This document shows, piece by piece, positions 8,927 to 28,576 of a stretch of 64,000 bases of DNA. The translations under genes and the position numbers were made by a program. Each line of letters begins with the position of its first letter. Positions within the stretch are counted from its first letter, which is position 1. The notes under the pieces were generated by a model. The model was not told the DNA's origin. It did not search any database and worked only from the letters and a program-made list of their open reading frames with translations. This stretch comes from Ruegeria atlantica (GTDB lineage Bacteria > Pseudomonadota > Alphaproteobacteria > Rhodobacterales > Rhodobacteraceae), in the NCBI RefSeq assembly GCF_013033965.1, contig NZ_WQFE01000007.1, positions 1-64,000 on the forward strand, read 5' to 3'.

Positions 8927-9921
8927 TGCTGTACCTCCTGCCCGAATTCTACCGTCCCCGGCTGTTGCTCGGCGCTCAGAGCTTTGCCACCGTGATACCG
9001 ATGCACAATTGATTGAAACAGGTTGCCGTCCTCGAGCGTGAAGTACAAAACGTTTTCAGGCATTTGCGCGGTTCCCAAGGCGGCCTGCACCTCGTCCCTG
9101 TCCGACCGCATGGCCAAAATGCGATACGTTTCATCGTTCAGTGCTATACCGTTGTTGCGCACTTTTTCGACCCACGAACTGAATTCTTCGCTTGGCATGG
9201 AGACGGTTTGAAATTTCTGCTTGGTAAACCCACGTCCATTGTACTGCGTGTTCTCGCCCTGCATTGTCGCGGGCACATCCGACACGACATGCAATTCTGT
9301 CGTCATGCCGGGCATAGCGTAAATCTGGCCAGCCAATGCCGGGATCATGAATGACTGCATGACGGTATCGGTCGTCAGCGTCATCGCGACCTGTTGTTTG
9401 ACCGGTATTCCAAACTCTCCGACGCTGGCGATGCCAAGGTCGGGGTAGATGAACAGCCATTTCCAGTCCAGCCCAACGACCTGAACGTTCAACGCAGGCA
9501 TTTCACCAAAGCGATCTGAATAGGGATCCAATCGGTGGGTCGCCTTCCAAAGATAAAATGACAGCAGCGCGACAATCAGGACCGGCACGCCCCACATAAC
9601 GAATTCCAGTTTCCCGGAGAAATCCCACTTGGGCCGATAAAGGGCACTGCCCTCTTTGCGGCGCCGATATCGGATAGCAATCAGCGGAACCAAAACAAGA
9701 ACCGGAACAACGGCTAGCAGAATCAGAGCAGTGGCACGCAAAAGATGCACCTTTTGGACAGCGGCAATCGGACCTTGTGGGTCCATGAAACTGTCACTGG
9801 CGCAAGCAGTATGCGCCATTAAGGAGAGAGCCGCGGCAGTGGTCACGACATGCATCGCCTTTGGTGACATTCGGAATAGGGCCACGCCTGATAGTCCTCC
9901 TGAAGCAACCTCTCGGGCCAA
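8923..9921 (-). CDS. cyoA: Cytochrome o ubiquinol oxidase subunit II
   Basis: This is subunit II of a quinol (not cytochrome c) oxidase. The cupredoxin domain (about residues 130-260) keeps the fold signature FMIPALAGQIYAMPGMTTEL but lacks the CuA cysteine pair. It has an N-terminal signal-like segment ending near AHTACAS, a weak candidate lipobox, and two membrane helices (LLRATALILLAVVPVLVLVP and VMWGVPVLIVALLSFYLW). The longest frame starts at 9921; an internal ATG at 9870 is equally plausible because it sits directly before the signal segment. It is the first gene of the cyo operon, and about 150 bases separate it from the divergent transglycosylase gene. Confidence 0.92.
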   Translation of the reverse strand: MAREVASGGLSGVALFRMSPKAMHVVTTAAALSLMAHTACASDSFMDPQGPIAAVQKVHLLRATALILLAVVPVLVLVPLIAIRYRRRKEGSALYRPKWDFSGKLEFVMWGVPVLIVALLSFYLWKATHRLDPYSDRFGEMPALNVQVVGLDWKWLFIYPDLGIASVGEFGIPVKQQVAMTLTTDTVMQSFMIPALAGQIYAMPGMTTELHVVSDVPATMQGENTQYNGRGFTKQKFQTVSMPSEEFSSWVEKVRNNGIALNDETYRILAMRSDRDEVQAALGTAQMPENVLYFTLEDGNLFQSIVHRYHGGKALSAEQQPGTVEFGQEVQQ

Positions 9922-15269: not shown

Positions 15270-17075
15270 ATGAGTCTGTTTTCCGTAAAAGATCTGGGCG
15301 TCCAGTTCAACACGCCCGATGGCGTTGTTGAGGCTGTAAAAGGCATCAGTTTCGATATCAATCCGGGCGAATGCCTGGGCATCGTAGGCGAAAGTGGCTC
15401 CGGCAAAAGCCAGACCTTCATGGCTGCAATGGGCTTGTTGCCACCCGCCGGGCAAGCAACCGGTTCCGCCATGCTGAACGGTCAGGAAATTCTGAACCTG
15501 CCGGTAAACAAGCTGAACCAAATTCGTGGCGACGATGTCGGCATGATCTTTCAGGATCCTCTCACTGCCCTGACCCCGCACCTGCGGATTGGCCAGCAGA
15601 TGCGTGAAGTTCTGCAGGTTCATGAAGGGCTGCAAGGTTCGGCTGCGCGGGCACGCTGCCTTGAATGGCTGGATCGCGTGCGCATCCCCGAAGCCAAGCG
15701 GCGACTGGACCAGTATCCGCATGAGTTGTCCGGTGGTATGCGCCAGAGGGTCATGATCGCAATGTCCATGCTGTGCAATCCCAAGCTGCTGATCGCGGAT
15801 GAACCGACAACAGCCTTGGATGTGACCGTTCAGGCCGACATTCTGGATCTGATGGTACGCCTACAAAAAGACGAAGGCACGGCGATCGCCCTGATCACAC
15901 ATGACATGGGTGTCGTCGCGCGTATGTGCGACCGCGTCCAGGTCATGCGATTGGGTCAATTCGTCGAGTCGGGTGAGACACGCGAGATTTTCCGCGCGCC
16001 GAAGCATGAGTACACCCAGACGTTGCTGGAAGCGATGCCGCGCATCGATGCCGGCGATGCGCCTAAGGCGCTTGAAAAAGTCGATGATCCGCTGCTGAAA
16101 GTCGATGACGTAAAGGTGCACTTTCCGATCCACGTTTCGGGCGGGCTGTTTGGACACAAAGTTCCGCTGAAAGCCGTCGATGGAGTCAGCTTTGACATCC
16201 GCAAGGGCGAAACGCTGGGTGTTGTGGGCGAGTCTGGTTGCGGCAAGTCCACTTTGGCGCGGGCCGTTTTGCAACTGATCGAGCCCAGCGCGGGCAACGT
16301 CAGTTGGCTGGGCCATCCCATCGTCGGGCTGAAACGGCGCGAACTGAACAAATACCGTAAGGATTTGCAGATCGTGTTCCAGGATCCATTGGCCAGCCTC
16401 GATCCGCGTATGACCATTTCGGCCTCGATTGCTGAGCCATTGAAGACCTATCGCCCTGACCTGACTGAGCGGGAACGCAAAAAGCTGGTCTCCGAAATGA
16501 TGGAGCGGGTCGGTTTGAAAGCTAACATGATCAACCGATATCCGCATGAACTGTCCGGCGGCCAGAACCAGCGTGTCGGTATTGCGCGAGCGATGATCAA
16601 CAAACCCAAACTCATCATCTGTGACGAAGCTGTGTCGGCACTGGACGTGTCAATTCAGGCGCAGATCGTGGAGTTGCTACGTGAGTTGCAACAGGAATTT
16701 GGTCTGTCGATGATCTTCATCAGTCACGATCTGTCTGTTGTTCGGGCGGTATCGAACCGGATCATGGTGCTTTATCTGGGCCGGATCGTGGAATTGGGTG
16801 ACGGAGAAGTGATCTGTTCTGATCCGATCCACCCGTACACGAAATCGCTGATCTCGGCCGTTCCCATTCCGGACCCGGACGTTGAGCGTAGTCGTACACG
16901 CCTGAAATTGCCGGGCGAATTGCCTTCACCGATGGATCCCAAAGCGGCATTGAGGTTCCTGCCAAGTCGTTTGGCGGCTGGGGAGACGAACTATGTTCCA
17001 CGGTTGAGCGAAGTGAAACCCAATCATTTTGTGGCCGAACACGACTCGCTCGAAGCGATCATGGCAAAGGCATAA
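15270..17075 (+). CDS. oppDF: Fused dual ATPase of oligopeptide ABC transporter (OppD-OppF)
   Basis: This 601-residue protein contains two complete ABC domains in tandem. Domain 1 has GESGSGKS at residues 40-47 and LSGGMRQRV, and domain 2 has GESGCGKS near residue 320 and LSGGQNQRV. Both end in the oligopeptide-transporter C-terminal extension ([18 protein letters not shown] and [17 protein letters not shown]). In E. coli these are separate proteins OppD and OppF; the fusion supplies both nucleotide-binding sites from one chain, as in YejF. The reading frame is open upstream within oppC; ATG 15270 immediately follows the oppC stop and starts the conserved domain. It is the last gene of the operon. 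Confidence 0.93.
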
Positions 17076-21876: not shown

Positions 21877-22761
21877 TCAAGTCGACGCATAAAGCGGCAC
21901 CGATCCCTTGGCCCCTTCCGCCAGCGCTTTGCTCTGATCGCTGCGAACCCTCTCATACAGGGCCAAAGCATCCGCAGAAAACAGCTCGGTCGGCGGATCA
22001 ACGTGAACAAAATTGCTTTGGCTGTCCTGCCCGCGTACCAACAAAGCATAGTCGCGTTCCGCGACCAGTTGCTTGGCATTCGGGTTGAGATAGCGGATCG
22101 CAAGTCCAATACGCCGGTCATCGGATTGATTGGGACCAGACCCATGGATCGTCAGCCCGTGATGCAGAGACATCTGCCCTGGTGCCAGTTCAATGTGGGT
22201 TTTGTCTTCCTCGTCGACGTCCACCGCAACCTCCTGTCCGCGCGACAGAAGATTGGTGTCAGAGTACGTATCATTGTGCGGAAGAATTGGGTTCTTATGG
22301 CTGGCGCGCACAAAATCCATGCACCCACTTTCAACTGTCGCCGGAGACAACGCGATCCATGCGGTAACCTGATCCGGGGTTTCGCCCATCCCCCAGTAGG
22401 TCAGATCCTGATGCATCCCGACCGTATGGGCTGTTTGCGGTTCCTTGATGAAGAATTCGGCCGACCAAATCATGATGTCCGGCCCCAACACGCCCTCCAC
22501 CACATCCAGAACGCGGGGATCCATCGCGACACTTGCTGCAAGCGGCATCACCAGATGCGCGTTGACCCGCTTGTAGGTATTCAGCGGCAAAGGCAGATCA
22601 GCATCAAGCCATTCCCGCTCAATCCGCTCCAGCTCTGCGCGACGCTCGGCGACTTCTTCTTTGGAAAAGATGGTCAGCGGAAAAAGAAACCCATCCTCCC
22701 AATACTTATCAGATTGCTCTTGGGTAAGTGCGACGTCACTCGATGAGTTGTTTTCAGACAT
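21877..22761 (-). CDS. Phytanoyl-CoA dioxygenase family protein (upstream of gmd)
   Basis: This 294-residue protein has a double-stranded beta-helix Fe(II)/2-oxoglutarate oxygenase pattern. The HxD pair is in GMHQDLTYWG, and the distal His region is LHHGLTIHGSGPNQSDDRRIG with the 2-oxoglutarate-binding Arg nearby (RIGLAIRY). The substrate is unknown; PhyH relatives hydroxylate acyl-CoAs, ectoine, mitomycin-like compounds and others. ATG 22761 is chosen because GGAGGAAG precedes it; the frame is open to 22815. It is transcribed in the same direction as gmd but with a 125-base gap, so cotranscription is uncertain. Confidence 0.85.
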   Translation of the reverse strand: MSENNSSSDVALTQEQSDKYWEDGFLFPLTIFSKEEVAERRAELERIEREWLDADLPLPLNTYKRVNAHLVMPLAASVAMDPRVLDVVEGVLGPDIMIWSAEFFIKEPQTAHTVGMHQDLTYWGMGETPDQVTAWIALSPATVESGCMDFVRASHKNPILPHNDTYSDTNLLSRGQEVAVDVDEEDKTHIELAPGQMSLHHGLTIHGSGPNQSDDRRIGLAIRYLNPNAKQLVAERDYALLVRGQDSQSNFVHVDPPTELFSADALALYERVRSDQSKALAEGAKGSVPLYAST

Positions 22762-23017
22762 CTGACTTGCTTCCTCCAATGCTTGTTCTACCAGAGAAAT
22801 TGCGCTGCGCTGCACACGGAGTGCCTAACTTACCTGCGACGATATGTTCAGCTTTGCCATTTGGGCAAATCACCTCCCGTTTCAATTCTGACACGGTTTC
22901 GTGTCTTCGCTGTTCCAGCCGCGCCGGGCACAGCCCCCCACAAGAACAGGTTCAATTTGCTGTCAAATCCCCCGGATCAAAGAGGGTATGTGACAACCAA
23001 TCTTCAAAATTCGTGTG

Positions 23018-24720: not shown

Positions 24721-24873
24721 TTGAGAACTCGTCACGGATGCTTATCAGATAACATTTTCCTAGAATTAACGAATTCAACGCTTTCGTGTTCAAAATGTGA
24801 TCGAATGTGAACTTTAATGGGATTTTTTCCCATTATCACTAAGGTGTGACCCCTTCTTGAACTGGAGAATGAC

Positions 24874-26499
24874 ATGCACCTTATCGCAACCGATCCCCAG
24901 ACAAACTATGCCCCCCTGACACCAACAGATCTAGCCAGTGCAGCCGGGCAAGATGCGTTGAACGCACTGAGCCCCGAAGATCAAGAGTTGTTTCTTTCTT
25001 TTGGCTGGGGGCCGCAGGCTTCACCCCGGCATGCGACAATAGCAGACGCGCTGCGCCACGCGTTGCGGGATCAGCCCGATGCCGCCGCACTGGAATGTGC
25101 TGGCCATAGCCTCAGCTATCGGGCGCTGGACGAAGCCTCAAACCGGTTGGCGAATGTCATGCGCGCGCACGGCGTAAAACGCGGCGACGCCGTGTGCTTG
25201 TTCCTGCATCGTTCGGTCGAGATGGTCGTGGGTATTGTCGCGGCAATCAAACTTGGGGCGGCCTATGTCCCGCAGCATGTCGGCGTTGCACCGACGGAAA
25301 CCCTGCGCCACGTAGCGAAGGTCACCGGTTCAAAAATAATCCTAAGCCTCAGCGATTTGACAGATCAAATCCCGGTTGGTCTGGATCAGACGCTGATCAC
25401 CATTGATACGACAATGTTCGATCCAATGTTGGACGCGCCAGCACCCGGCTATACACATCGGGCCAGTCCCGACGACCTGGCGATGATATTGTTTACGTCT
25501 GGCACGACCGGCGTTCCGAACGGTGTACAAGTCAATCACCGAAATCTGGCGAATATCCTGCTGACTAGCCCTGGCGATCTGGGGATGCGACCGGGCCAGC
25601 GAGTTGGACAGATCCTTTCGATTTCGTTCGACATGGCGGCATGGGAAATCCTAGGCGCTTTGTCCAATGGCGCAACGCTGGTCGTCCGAGGCAAATCGAT
25701 TCAGGAAACAGCCGAGAATGTGGACGTTCTGATTGCCACACCTTCGATCCTGAACGCGCTGGACCACACGCGCTGTACCCAGGTCCAAACAGTTGCTGTA
25801 GCAGGCGAACCCTGCCCCCGCCCGCTGGCAGATCGGTGGTCGAGCTTTTGCACCTTCTACAACTCATGTGGTCCGACCGAGACTACGATCATCAATACGG
25901 CCGAACCCCATTTCGCAGACAAGCAGGTTCTGTCAATCGGGCGCCCGACGCCGAACAACACGGTCTACATTTTGGACGAAAACCTGCGCCCGGTGCCCAT
26001 CGGCGAGAAGGGTGAGATGTGGGCAGGCGGCGATTGCGTCACGGCAGGTTACCTCGCAAACCCTAAGCTGACGGCCGAGCGTTACCGACCCGACCCATTC
26101 CGGCCGGGCCATATGATGTTCCGCACCCGTGATCTGGGCCGTTGGACGGAAACCGGCGAGTTGGAGCATTTCGGGCGCGTTGATGACCTCGTGAAGGTGC
26201 GCGGGTTCCGGGTTGAGTTGGACGGCGTTACAACCGCCCTTGAGGCGTCACCTTGCTGTCAGCAAGCGGTGACCTTGCAATACGACAACCGCAATCTGGT
26301 CAGTTTTATCTCGCCATCTTCGGCCTGCCCGAAACGGGCAGTGCAATGCGTATCAGATCGACTGCCGTACTACTGCAGCCCTACCGTTGTTGTCCCCATG
26401 GACACCCTACCCCGCACACCGCGCGGCAAGCTGGATAAACGTCTTTTGCTGGATATGGCACGCAACCATATCGCCGAAACCGGTGCGGAGTTAAACTGA
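24874..26499 (+). CDS. NRPS-like amino-acid-type adenylation enzyme (stand-alone)
   Basis: The product is 541 residues. After about 50 residues of unfamiliar N-terminus comes a full AMP-binding domain: A3 LFTSGTTGVPNGV (207-219), A4 FDMAAWE (252-258), A5 NSCGPTETT (330-338), A7 FRTRDLGRW (416-424), A8 GRVDDLVKVRGFRVEL (434-449) and A10 RTPRGKLDKR with the catalytic Lys near 519. The Asp in A4 corresponds to the residue that binds the alpha-amino group in amino-acid-activating domains, so an amino-acid-like substrate is inferred. No carrier-protein domain is present. Its stop overlaps the start of the membrane oxidoreductase (TGATG), linking the two. Confidence 0.85.
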   Translation: MHLIATDPQTNYAPLTPTDLASAAGQDALNALSPEDQELFLSFGWGPQASPRHATIADALRHALRDQPDAAALECAGHSLSYRALDEASNRLANVMRAHGVKRGDAVCLFLHRSVEMVVGIVAAIKLGAAYVPQHVGVAPTETLRHVAKVTGSKIILSLSDLTDQIPVGLDQTLITIDTTMFDPMLDAPAPGYTHRASPDDLAMILFTSGTTGVPNGVQVNHRNLANILLTSPGDLGMRPGQRVGQILSISFDMAAWEILGALSNGATLVVRGKSIQETAENVDVLIATPSILNALDHTRCTQVQTVAVAGEPCPRPLADRWSSFCTFYNSCGPTETTIINTAEPHFADKQVLSIGRPTPNNTVYILDENLRPVPIGEKGEMWAGGDCVTAGYLANPKLTAERYRPDPFRPGHMMFRTRDLGRWTETGELEHFGRVDDLVKVRGFRVELDGVTTALEASPCCQQAVTLQYDNRNLVSFISPSSACPKRAVQCVSDRLPYYCSPTVVVPMDTLPRTPRGKLDKRLLLDMARNHIAETGAELN

Positions 26500-27812
26500 T
26501 GACCACGCAAACGACAAACCTAGATACCGGCGGTCTGAACTGGAGGCGTGTGACCCGCCACCCCGCCCTGATGGAATACCGCCGCCTTGCAATGCTGGTT
26601 GCGGTGGCGAATCTGGTCGTGTTCGTGGTTGGACTGCGCGACGGGGTTTGGTTCGCCAACAGCGCTTTCGCACTCAGCCCGATTGCGAACATGGCGCTGA
26701 TCAACCTCAGCCTTGGCATACTGATCCGACAGCAGCGGGTGATCAACGCCCTGTTCTGGCTGGCCACCCGCATTCCGACGTCATGGCCTCTGTGGATCCG
26801 TTGGGGGGCTGGCAAGGTGTTCCACTTCGGCGGGCTGCATTCAGGGGGCACCGTTGCCGGGACCATCTGGTTCAGCTTTCTTCTTTTTGCGATGGTTTGG
26901 AACCGTGCCAACGGGTCTGCCGTACCCTCGGATCTGACACTTGTCCTAAGCGCGACCATGGTCGCCTTGATGACATTGATGGTGACATCGGCCCTCGGAC
27001 CGATCCGCGCGCGGTTCCACAATGTGTTCGAGAAAATACACCGCTTTGTCGGCTGGACGGTTTTGGGACTGTTCTGGGCGCAGACAGTCTCGGTCACAAA
27101 TGACGCCGGGGGTATGTTGCTTCACAGCGCGGCTTTCTGGATGCTCTGCCTGATCACTTTATCAATCCTGTCTCCCTGGCTGACCCTGAAACGTGTGGAT
27201 GTCAGGATCGAGAAGCCCTCAAGCCATGCGGTGATTGCACAGTTCGACTATGGGGATACGCCATTTCCCGGCAGTTCGAACGCCATCAGCCATACTCGGT
27301 TTGGAGAGTACCATTCGTTCGCCAATATCCCCGCTCCGGACCGGTCGGGTTACCGATTGGCCATTAGCCGCGCTGGTGACTGGACTGGCCGATTCATCGA
27401 TAACCCACCAAACAAGGTTTGGGTCAAGGGGATCACGACATCGGGTGTGGCACGGATCGAAGTGCTTTTCAAAAAAGTGGTATATGTGGGCACCGGGTCG
27501 GGCATCGGACCAATCCTGCCGCATCTACTGGCCAAGGATGTGCCAAACCGTTTGATCTGGTCCACCCGCAGCCCGCGCAAAACCTATGGTGACGCGCTGG
27601 TGGATGAGATCGAGGCCAATACCGAGCAGCCTTTGATCTGGGACACAGACAAAGACGGCAAACCCAATCTGTCGGCCCTAGCCTTGCATGCCGTTCGAGA
27701 AAGCGGGGCCGAAGCCGTTATCGTGATCTCGAACCAAAAGCTGACCCGGAAGGTTGTGCACGACATGGAAAGCCTGGGCATTCCTGCCTATGGCGCAATT
27801 TGGGATAGCTGA
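26499..27812 (+). CDS. Membrane flavo-oxidoreductase with ferric-reductase-like NAD domain
   Basis: This 437-residue protein has six hydrophobic helices (about residues 31-47, 55-76, 118-134, 146-166, 182-199, 206-227). A cytoplasmic C-terminal half follows that looks like a divergent ferredoxin-reductase module. The nucleotide-binding motif VVYVGTGSGIGP lies at 328-338, and a poorly conserved FAD region lies around 280-310. Histidines H109, H114, H174, H181 and H209 near the membrane could bind haem, but spacing does not match the classic ferric-reductase pairs. From memory it recalls the fungal TmpA family of membrane flavoproteins. It overlaps the adenylation gene upstream and is two bases from the crotonase gene downstream. 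Confidence 0.7.
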   Translation: MTTQTTNLDTGGLNWRRVTRHPALMEYRRLAMLVAVANLVVFVVGLRDGVWFANSAFALSPIANMALINLSLGILIRQQRVINALFWLATRIPTSWPLWIRWGAGKVFHFGGLHSGGTVAGTIWFSFLLFAMVWNRANGSAVPSDLTLVLSATMVALMTLMVTSALGPIRARFHNVFEKIHRFVGWTVLGLFWAQTVSVTNDAGGMLLHSAAFWMLCLITLSILSPWLTLKRVDVRIEKPSSHAVIAQFDYGDTPFPGSSNAISHTRFGEYHSFANIPAPDRSGYRLAISRAGDWTGRFIDNPPNKVWVKGITTSGVARIEVLFKKVVYVGTGSGIGPILPHLLAKDVPNRLIWSTRSPRKTYGDALVDEIEANTEQPLIWDTDKDGKPNLSALALHAVRESGAEAVIVISNQKLTRKVVHDMESLGIPAYGAIWDS

Positions 27813-27814
27813 GC

Positions 27815-28576
27815 ATGTTTGAGACAATCGAAACCGAAACACAGGGGCGGGTCGCCACGATCCGCTTCAATCGGCCCGATCAGCTGAATGCGCTGAACAC
27901 ACAACTCATGCACGAAGTCCTGACCGCCGCCACCGAATTCGACAAGGACCCCGGCATCGGATGCTTGATCCTCACGGGCAATGATCGTGCTTTTGCTGCC
28001 GGGGCGGATATCGGCGAGCTTGCGGTGCAAACCTACGCGACCATGCAGACCAACGACTACTTTGCCGAGTGGGACAGGTTTGCAGCCTTTCGCATACCCA
28101 AGGTGGCGGCGGTTAGTGGCTATGCTTTGGGCGGCGGGTGTGAAGTTGCACTGATGTGCGACGTCATTTTGGCCTCAGACACCGCCAAATTCGGTCAGCC
28201 CGAAATTAAAATCGGTTGCATTCCGGGCATTGGAGGCACCCAGAGGCTAACGCGGCTAATCGGTCGTGTCAGGGCCATGGACATGATCCTGACCGGACGC
28301 ATGATTGATGCGTCCGAGGCCCTGCAGATTGGTCTGGTCAGCCGGGTTGTCACGCAGAACACCCTGTCGGACACGGCTTATGAGGTGGCCGAAATCATCG
28401 CAGACTACGCCGATGACATCGTAAGCATGGCGCGCACCTGTGTAAATATGGCCGAACAGAGCACGCTTGAATCAGGTTTGCGGTTTGAACGGCAGATGTA
28501 TCACGCGCTTTATGGATTGCCCGCCCAACAAGAAGGCATGAACGCATTTCTGGAAAAGCGAGACCCTCGGTTCTGA
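27815..28576 (+). CDS. Enoyl-CoA hydratase/isomerase (crotonase family)
   Basis: This 253-residue crotonase-fold protein has the oxyanion-hole segment FAAGADIGEL (60-69) and both catalytic glutamates of classical enoyl-CoA hydratases, E110 (GGGCEVALMCD) and E130 (GQPEIKIGCIPGIGG). A hydratase rather than only an isomerase is therefore likely, acting on a 2-enoyl-CoA. It starts two bases after the membrane oxidoreductase and ends the three-gene operon. Its partners suggest a role outside ordinary beta-oxidation, perhaps on an activated amino-acid- or acyl-derived intermediate, but this is inference. Confidence 0.9.
   Translation: MFETIETETQGRVATIRFNRPDQLNALNTQLMHEVLTAATEFDKDPGIGCLILTGNDRAFAAGADIGELAVQTYATMQTNDYFAEWDRFAAFRIPKVAAVSGYALGGGCEVALMCDVILASDTAKFGQPEIKIGCIPGIGGTQRLTRLIGRVRAMDMILTGRMIDASEALQIGLVSRVVTQNTLSDTAYEVAEIIADYADDIVSMARTCVNMAEQSTLESGLRFERQMYHALYGLPAQQEGMNAFLEKRDPRF

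Follow-up and report, generated by a model that had tools for sequence, protein, structure and literature searches.

The 64,000-nucleotide stretch of Ruegeria atlantica DNA analysed here (the window) carries an operon that encodes a stand-alone NRPS-type adenylation (A) enzyme, a membrane flavoprotein and a crotonase, which we read as the split bacterial counterpart of fungal TmpB/TmpL (ChNPS12), the fungal side being compared by published description. Taken as a whole, and together with a divergent regulatory region, this split TmpB/TmpL-like system probably (about 60%) constitutes a self-contained, regulated pathway leading to a modified amino acid. The A enzyme, the fold and fusion of the flavoprotein, the dedicated crotonase and the alphaproteobacterial DUF6502-DUF5666 pair with its palindrome were established by sequence, comparison and modelling.

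The three genes lie as the original prediction had placed them (Table 1), the A gene overlapping the flavoprotein gene by 1 base (TGATG) and the flavoprotein gene being separated from the crotonase gene by a 2-base gap, and the assignment of all three to one transcription unit holds up. The parts list of that prediction also stood: an adenylation enzyme that keeps the A4 Asp and has no carrier domain, a membrane flavo-oxidoreductase with six helices and GTGSGIGP, and a crotonase with both catalytic Glu residues, as did its link to TmpA/TmpB. The chemistry it suggested, in which an activated amino acid would be reduced or modified at the membrane, stays a hypothesis. It did not include the divergent regulator pair, the DUF6502 and DUF5666 genes by which the unit extends upstream on the other strand, or the operator-like palindrome, and so described too small a unit. 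No Rfam families were found between positions 17000 and 36000.

Table 1. Features of the operon and its divergent region (positions in the window).
Feature	Position	Strand	Remarks
Stand-alone NRPS-type adenylation (A) enzyme, 541 aa	24874..26499	+	Pocket code D-M-W-A-A-A-S-I-I-K
TmpA-like six-helix membrane flavo-oxidoreductase, NADPH-oxidase fold, 437 aa	26499..27812	+	
Codons for NAD(P)-binding motif GTGSGIGP, residues 331-338 of the flavoprotein	27489..27512	+	
Crotonase / enoyl-CoA hydratase, 253 aa	27815..28576	+	Cassette-specific clade; Glu110 and Glu130
DUF6502 protein, 281 aa	23890..24735	-	Divergent from the operon; putative winged-helix DNA-binding regulator (modelling)
DUF5666 protein, 289 aa	23018..23887	-	Signal-peptide-like N-terminus; second gene of the divergent pair
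Operator-like palindrome TAATGGGA-n5-TCCCATTA	24815..24835	no strand	Core TGGGATTTTTTCCCA at 24818-24832

Comparison of 57 database loci from Alphaproteobacteria, Gammaproteobacteria and Bacteroidota revealed the A gene directly upstream of the flavoprotein gene wherever the sequence extends that far, with an overlap of 1 base in 37 and of 4 bases in 9 of the 47 loci measured. The search for conserved adjacency proposed with the original prediction thus found the genes together almost always rather than rarely. In Aquimarina longa the A and flavoprotein parts form a single ORF of 1019 aa with the crotonase gene adjacent downstream, and in a second Bacteroidota genome the three genes are separate. 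Of about 54 loci where it could be tested, 45 have the crotonase gene next in line; it is absent or broken in about nine carrier loci, and is therefore not strictly required; short remnants of it were seen in four loci lacking an intact copy. Its absence from some carriers is what could be said for regarding the genes as unrelated neighbours in an operon with no joint function. That reading is already contradicted by the adjacency across phyla, the bacterial fusion, the dedicated crotonase clade and the same trio in fungi, as described in PMC4804170; the gene set is conserved and is not a chance grouping. The PhyH, PcaB-like and TctABC neighbours were discounted as members of the pathway, since only close Ruegeria share them. 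Literature searches turned up no work on this operon in bacteria.

The A enzyme matches TIGR01733 with 327.5 bits, above the cut-off of 317.4, and is a complete NRPS-type A enzyme with its core motifs. Its A4 Asp is D253 (equivalent to GrsA D235) and its A10 Lys is K519 (the K517 equivalent); since only 22 residues remain after K519, there is no carrier domain. The pocket code is near-invariant across 53 A-enzyme sequences, and the pocket looks suited to a hydrophobic alpha-amino acid. Stand-alone A domains are known to act in trans, and the genome itself encodes a large NRPS-type ORF of 3280 aa, which would fit an enzyme that loads a carrier protein encoded elsewhere, with the operon providing only an uncommon precursor for a larger NRPS. 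We consider such in-trans loading quite improbable: no carrier gene accompanies the cassette, and in the A. longa fusion a stretch of about 55 residues, and no carrier domain, separates the A domain from the membrane protein.

The flavoprotein has six membrane helices with the N-terminus inside, and the core residues of its GTGSGIGP motif are invariant across the family. Pfam gave no domain above its cut-off, Pfam and NCBIfam together gave no confident family, and a phmmer search against the PDB returned designed-protein matches only. A fold search with the model recovered the NADPH-oxidase fold over the full length (SpNOX, Z 22.7, 367 residues), and a profile search gave a weak match to NOX2 and DUOX across the FAD motif; H181 aligns with the inner-haem His of NOX2, and H272 and GDWT with its FAD motifs. 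In all 57 flavoprotein sequences the inner His pair H114/H181 is invariant and no His occupies the outer position of helix 3. NADPH oxidases bind two b haems through His pairs on helices 3 and 5, spaced by about 13 residues, an arrangement that the flavoprotein does not share. Fold and profile searches put the flavoprotein among the NADPH oxidases, minus the outer haem ligands. Two further flavoprotein matches were set aside, one of 18 bits as chance and one as a 49-residue fragment with an in-frame stop. The full-length NOX fold, and the altered superoxide levels and oxidant sensitivity of fungal tmpL mutants (PMC2766074), would suit a protein that chiefly reduces oxygen, iron or quinone in the manner of an NADPH oxidase, with the A enzyme and crotonase making its controlling ligand or substrate. 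This is improbable, as the whole family is without the outer haem ligands that electron transfer across the membrane requires and, according to PMC4804170, A. nidulans tmpB mutants are not oxidant-sensitive.

The crotonase matches PF00378 (enoyl-CoA hydratase/isomerase superfamily), and both catalytic residues, Glu110 and Glu130, are kept in 44 of 44 family members; against PRK05862 it reaches 351.8 bits, under the cut-off of 396. Twenty-three sampled cassette crotonases, drawn from three bacterial groups, form one clade (support 100/96) apart from housekeeping paralogues. With activation, flavin and crotonase in an order that resembles beta-oxidation, a crotonase closely resembling genuine enoyl-CoA hydratases such as EchA8, and a tricarboxylate-type transporter and a PcaB-like lyase adjoining the operon in the window, the genes might instead degrade a hydrophobic or aromatic carboxylic acid, the A enzyme acting as an acyl-CoA ligase and the product entering central metabolism. 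We regard degradation as unlikely, because the cassette has no thiolase or 3-hydroxyacyl-CoA dehydrogenase, the transporter and lyase adjoin it in close Ruegeria only, and the A enzyme is NRPS-type and carries the alpha-amino-binding Asp. The sporadic occurrence of the cassette and its private operator are also better fitted by a specialised product.

The divergent DUF6502 and DUF5666 genes are conserved in 45 alphaproteobacterial loci. The DUF6502 model (61) gave weak HetR/BusR/PcaR-type matches, the best Foldseek E-value being 0.011 (HetR). Because 33 of 296 family genomes have DUF6502, and most of these 33 lack the operon, the pair was rejected as an exclusive operon partner; the DUF6502-operon association is strong (Fisher P 3.5e-6), and DUF6502 is often accompanied by DUF5666 in other contexts too. 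The palindrome TGGGAWWWTTTCCCA is present once in the 4.67-Mb genome, and its core begins 56 bases upstream of the A start codon. It was found in 46 of 46 intergenic regions of loci with DUF6502 (two with one mismatch) and is missing where DUF6502 is missing. Specificity is limited to this AT-centred form, the broad form TGGG-n7-CCCA being unspecific with 67 copies in the genome. No consensus sigma-70 promoter was found in the divergent intergenic region. From co-occurrence only, we infer that DUF6502 binds the palindrome.

In the pathway that we propose, the A enzyme would activate a large hydrophobic or aromatic alpha-amino acid, which would go on as the adenylate or, if the A enzyme is assumed to transfer it, as the CoA derivative. 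The flavoprotein would oxidise the activated acid at the inner membrane face, most likely by alpha,beta-desaturation or hydroxylation, with NAD(P)H, FAD and no more than one inner b haem. Hydration or rearrangement of the unsaturated CoA thioester by the crotonase would then give the product, a small and modified amino acid that may be a signal, and DUF6502, bound to the palindrome, would control both divergent transcripts. Flavoproteins of the NADPH-oxidase fold normally use NAD(P)H to reduce an acceptor, which makes direct desaturation chemically awkward and counts against the proposal; the specific redox chemistry, taken alone, is doubtful. Equally tentative is the wider idea of a carrier-free nonribosomal chemistry at the membrane, in which the A enzyme would hand over to a NOX-fold flavoprotein with an inner haem only, yielding a signal shared by bacteria and fungi, and the genes would have moved between them with fusion.

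In fungi, normal sporulation depends on TmpB and TmpL, and in two pathogens virulence depends on TmpL. The bacterial set matches the fungal pathway piece for piece, so that the pathway's chemistry is now open to study in bacteria, where a compact operon, with its soluble, membrane and CoA-stage steps on separate proteins and with a candidate switch, makes it directly testable. The set is carried by marine bacteria with what may be their own private DNA switch, through which the uncharacterised DUF6502 family gains a candidate regulator role and DNA site, and its NOX-fold protein, without an outer haem site, seems to work in biosynthesis.

Among known systems, the flavoprotein resembles the NADPH oxidases (SpNOX, NOX2, NOX5 and DUOX) in its six-helix domain, FAD/NAD(P) dehydrogenase domain, inner-leaflet His pair and FAD motif around H272 and GDWT, and differs from them in lacking outer haem ligands and in the linkage of its gene to those for an A enzyme and a crotonase. 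The crotonase shares its fold and both catalytic Glu residues with the EchA8/PRK05862 group and differs in forming a separate, cassette-only clade. Published bacterial single A domains related to the NPS12 type are like the A enzyme of the window and, in the available text, are reported as stand-alone only.

The fungal relatives TmpB and TmpL are fusions of an A domain with a six-helix FAD/NAD(P) protein (PMC2766074, PMC4804170). TmpL of Alternaria brassicicola and Aspergillus fumigatus has an A domain, six helices and an FAD/NAD(P) domain with GSGIGP, reported as its NAD(P) motif, a fragment of it binds flavin, and as here there is no thiolation or condensation domain (PMC2766074). Unlike the window proteins, TmpL is fused and sits in fungal peroxisomes and Woronin bodies, and the words crotonase and enoyl-CoA are absent from its description (PMC2766074). 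Aspergillus nidulans TmpB is described in PMC4804170 as an A domain joined to a TmpA domain, with a hydrophobic amino acid predicted as its substrate; the available text mentions no DUF6502/DUF5666 pair or palindrome. As in the window, its A domain is carrier-free with the alpha-amino-binding Asp and catalytic Lys, its membrane oxidoreductase is TmpA-like, and an enoyl-CoA hydratase gene adjoins tmpB, in several Aspergilli. TmpB, compared here by its published description, is one fused protein where the Ruegeria window has two. The TmpA/TmpB link of the original prediction is supported by this architecture and by A. longa, whose A plus TmpA-like fusion with an adjacent crotonase gene has the layout published for fungal TmpB and its neighbouring enoyl-CoA hydratase gene.

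Reading of the ORFs bore out the original prediction of three genes, the first two overlapping by 1 base and the last two lying 2 bases apart (coordinates in the table). The first encodes a complete NRPS-type adenylation (A) enzyme scoring above the TIGR01733 cut-off, and the third a crotonase in which both catalytic Glu residues are present, as had been claimed; for the flavoprotein encoded between them, a Pfam domain search found no family above cut-off. Genes around the operon in this 4.67 Mb genome are up to 97-98% identical to their counterparts at Ruegeria loci. A PhyH-family dioxygenase gene adjoins the cassette in close Ruegeria loci only, and its product weakly matches chlorinating enzymes (75 bits vs a cut-off of 226).

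A scan of ~85,000 species yielded 57 flavoprotein loci, carried among others by Ruegeria, Leisingera, Pseudovibrio, Roseibium, Rhizobiaceae, Halomonas, Endozoicomonas, Microbulbifer and Aquimarina; many carrier genera associate with marine animals or algae. Occurrence is sporadic: among 296 genomes from the family to which this one belongs, the flavoprotein is present as 9 full-length copies. The adjacency check came out in favour of a conserved unit: an A gene, whole or fragmentary, lies directly 5′ of the flavoprotein gene wherever the locus includes the upstream region, overlapping it by 1 base in 37 and by 4 bases in 9 of the 47 junctions measured. By manual count, the crotonase gene follows directly 3′ in 45 of ~54 testable database loci. 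It was probably lost from four others, since short remnants persist just 3′ of the flavoprotein gene (clear decayed fragments in L068 and L070, very short traces in L036 and L058). On a Pantoea piersonii plasmid, a TmpA-like gene of 45% identity, with no accompanying adenylation gene, is flanked by an MFS transporter gene and an amino-acid-transporter-like gene annotated as AAA ATPase. Cyanobacterial plasmids encode a distant TmpA-like protein (~28% identity), again without an adenylation gene, and each such gene is followed by one for an HlyD-type membrane-fusion protein (for L082 and L084 the presence of HlyD domains was confirmed).

Coordinates of the operon and of related features
Feature	Locus	Coordinates	Strand
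A gene	window	24874-26499	+
Flavoprotein gene	window	26499-27812	+
Crotonase gene	window	27815-28576	+
DUF6502 gene	window	24735-23890	-
DUF5666 gene	window	23887-23018	-
Palindrome	window	24818-24832	
PhyH-family dioxygenase	window	21877-22815	
Long NRPS-type ORF (L102, L103)	G000:C47 (window's genome)	166182-175583	
Decayed crotonase fragment	L068	~9300-9615	
Decayed crotonase fragment	L070	~9310-9490	
Pantoea piersonii TmpA-like locus	L081	7820-13231	
Cyanobacterial TmpA-like locus	L082	11890-14641	
Cyanobacterial TmpA-like locus	L083	11869-14584	
Cyanobacterial TmpA-like locus	L084	6475-9078	
DUF6502-DUF5666 pair without operon	L177	5187-7646	
DUF6502-DUF5666 pair without operon	L178	4478-6923	
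DUF6502-DUF5666 pair without operon	L183	4833-7231	

The ten specificity positions of the A enzyme, placed by motif in what we take to be GrsA numbering, read D-M-W-A-A-A-S-I-I-K. With Asp at 235 and Trp at 239, the pocket probably accepts an alpha-amino acid that is hydrophobic or aromatic, the class also proposed for fungal TmpB; naming the amino acid would be a guess. Across 53 sequences the changes are small and confined to four positions, and this near-invariance suggests a single substrate for the family. The window's genome also contains a long NRPS-type ORF (~3280 aa), a possible partner of a trans-acting adenylation enzyme.

Structure prediction of the flavoprotein gave a good AlphaFold2 model (pLDDT 87.5) matching SpNOX (Z 22.7, 367 residues), human NOX2 and NOX5 over its whole length. 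A profile search of PDB sequences placed DUOX and NOX2 on top, weakly (E ~0.06-0.09) and in register, so that H181 falls on the His within the THHLF segment of NOX2, presumably its inner-haem ligand H209, and the motif of the FAD domain that contains H272 and GDWT falls on its counterpart. H109, H114, H174 and H181, invariant in 57 sequences, all lie at the cytosolic end as judged by charge distribution, and the outer haem ligands are absent from the family and from the 28%-identical cyanobacterial relatives; the protein can therefore be predicted to hold at most one NOX-type haem beside FAD, unlike the two-haem build of transmembrane NADPH oxidases.

The 23 cassette crotonases sampled, Endozoicomonas and Aquimarina included, form one clade (support 100/96) nested beside housekeeping enoyl-CoA hydratases of the same genomes. 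Since both catalytic Glu residues are kept in 44/44, these enzymes are expected from sequence to act as true hydratases of a CoA thioester, and the activated acid would thus reach CoA at some stage.

Divergent from the operon, DUF6502 and DUF5666 genes are kept in 45 alphaproteobacterial loci, and the palindrome TGGGAWWWTTTCCCA lies between the DUF6502 and A genes. TGGG-n7-CCCA is exact in 44 of 46 such intergenic regions (window included), with one mismatch in L046 and L065; the AT-centred form, with a chance expectation of 0.01, occurs only here in the whole genome. The palindrome is absent from loci without DUF6502 and from ten further DUF6502 loci, most of them more divergent, and lies just upstream of two DUF6502 genes in other contexts (L177, L184), a pattern that ties it, as a candidate operator, to cassette-type DUF6502. 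In its predicted structure DUF6502 consists mostly of helices and weakly resembles DNA-binding regulators, so such a role is likely. DUF5666 begins with a signal-peptide-like stretch. At L177, L178 and L183, pairs without the operon adjoin or diverge from genes for proteins that look like small fasciclin-type lipoproteins, and the two genes together seem to form a regulatory module that is portable.

Comparison thus far establishes co-inheritance, fusion, fold, pocket conservation, the dedicated crotonase and the candidate operator. As a mechanism we propose that an amino acid would be activated by the A enzyme, passed to CoA, oxidized at the inner membrane face and hydrated, giving a signal-like product. 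Degradation is the main rival because activation, redox and hydration follow one another as in beta-oxidation; however, the cassette lacks the later beta-oxidation enzymes, the A pocket is NRPS-type and a private candidate switch stands beside the operon, and we therefore favour biosynthesis.

We found no description of the bacterial operon itself in the literature. In Aquimarina longa, the A domain and membrane flavoprotein form one 1019-aa ORF, without a carrier domain and with only ~55 residues from the A10 motif to the membrane part, and the crotonase gene is next; in a second Bacteroidota genome, a genome search found the three genes colinear and unfused. The Aquimarina longa arrangement is the TmpB plan published in PMC4804170, in which the A domain and a TmpA-like oxidoreductase make up one protein and an adjoining enoyl-CoA hydratase gene is kept in several Aspergilli. 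TmpL binds flavin, has the domains of TmpB and shares the NAD(P) motif GSGIGP with the bacterial flavoprotein (PMC2766074), and stand-alone bacterial A domains were earlier reported to nest among NPS12-type domains (PMC2823734). Architecture, gene neighbourhood and published motifs argue for homology with the fungal proteins, in line with the likeness first suggested. The system is real and well conserved, and probably a bacterial variant of the fungal pathway, its likely regulatory half newly recognised.
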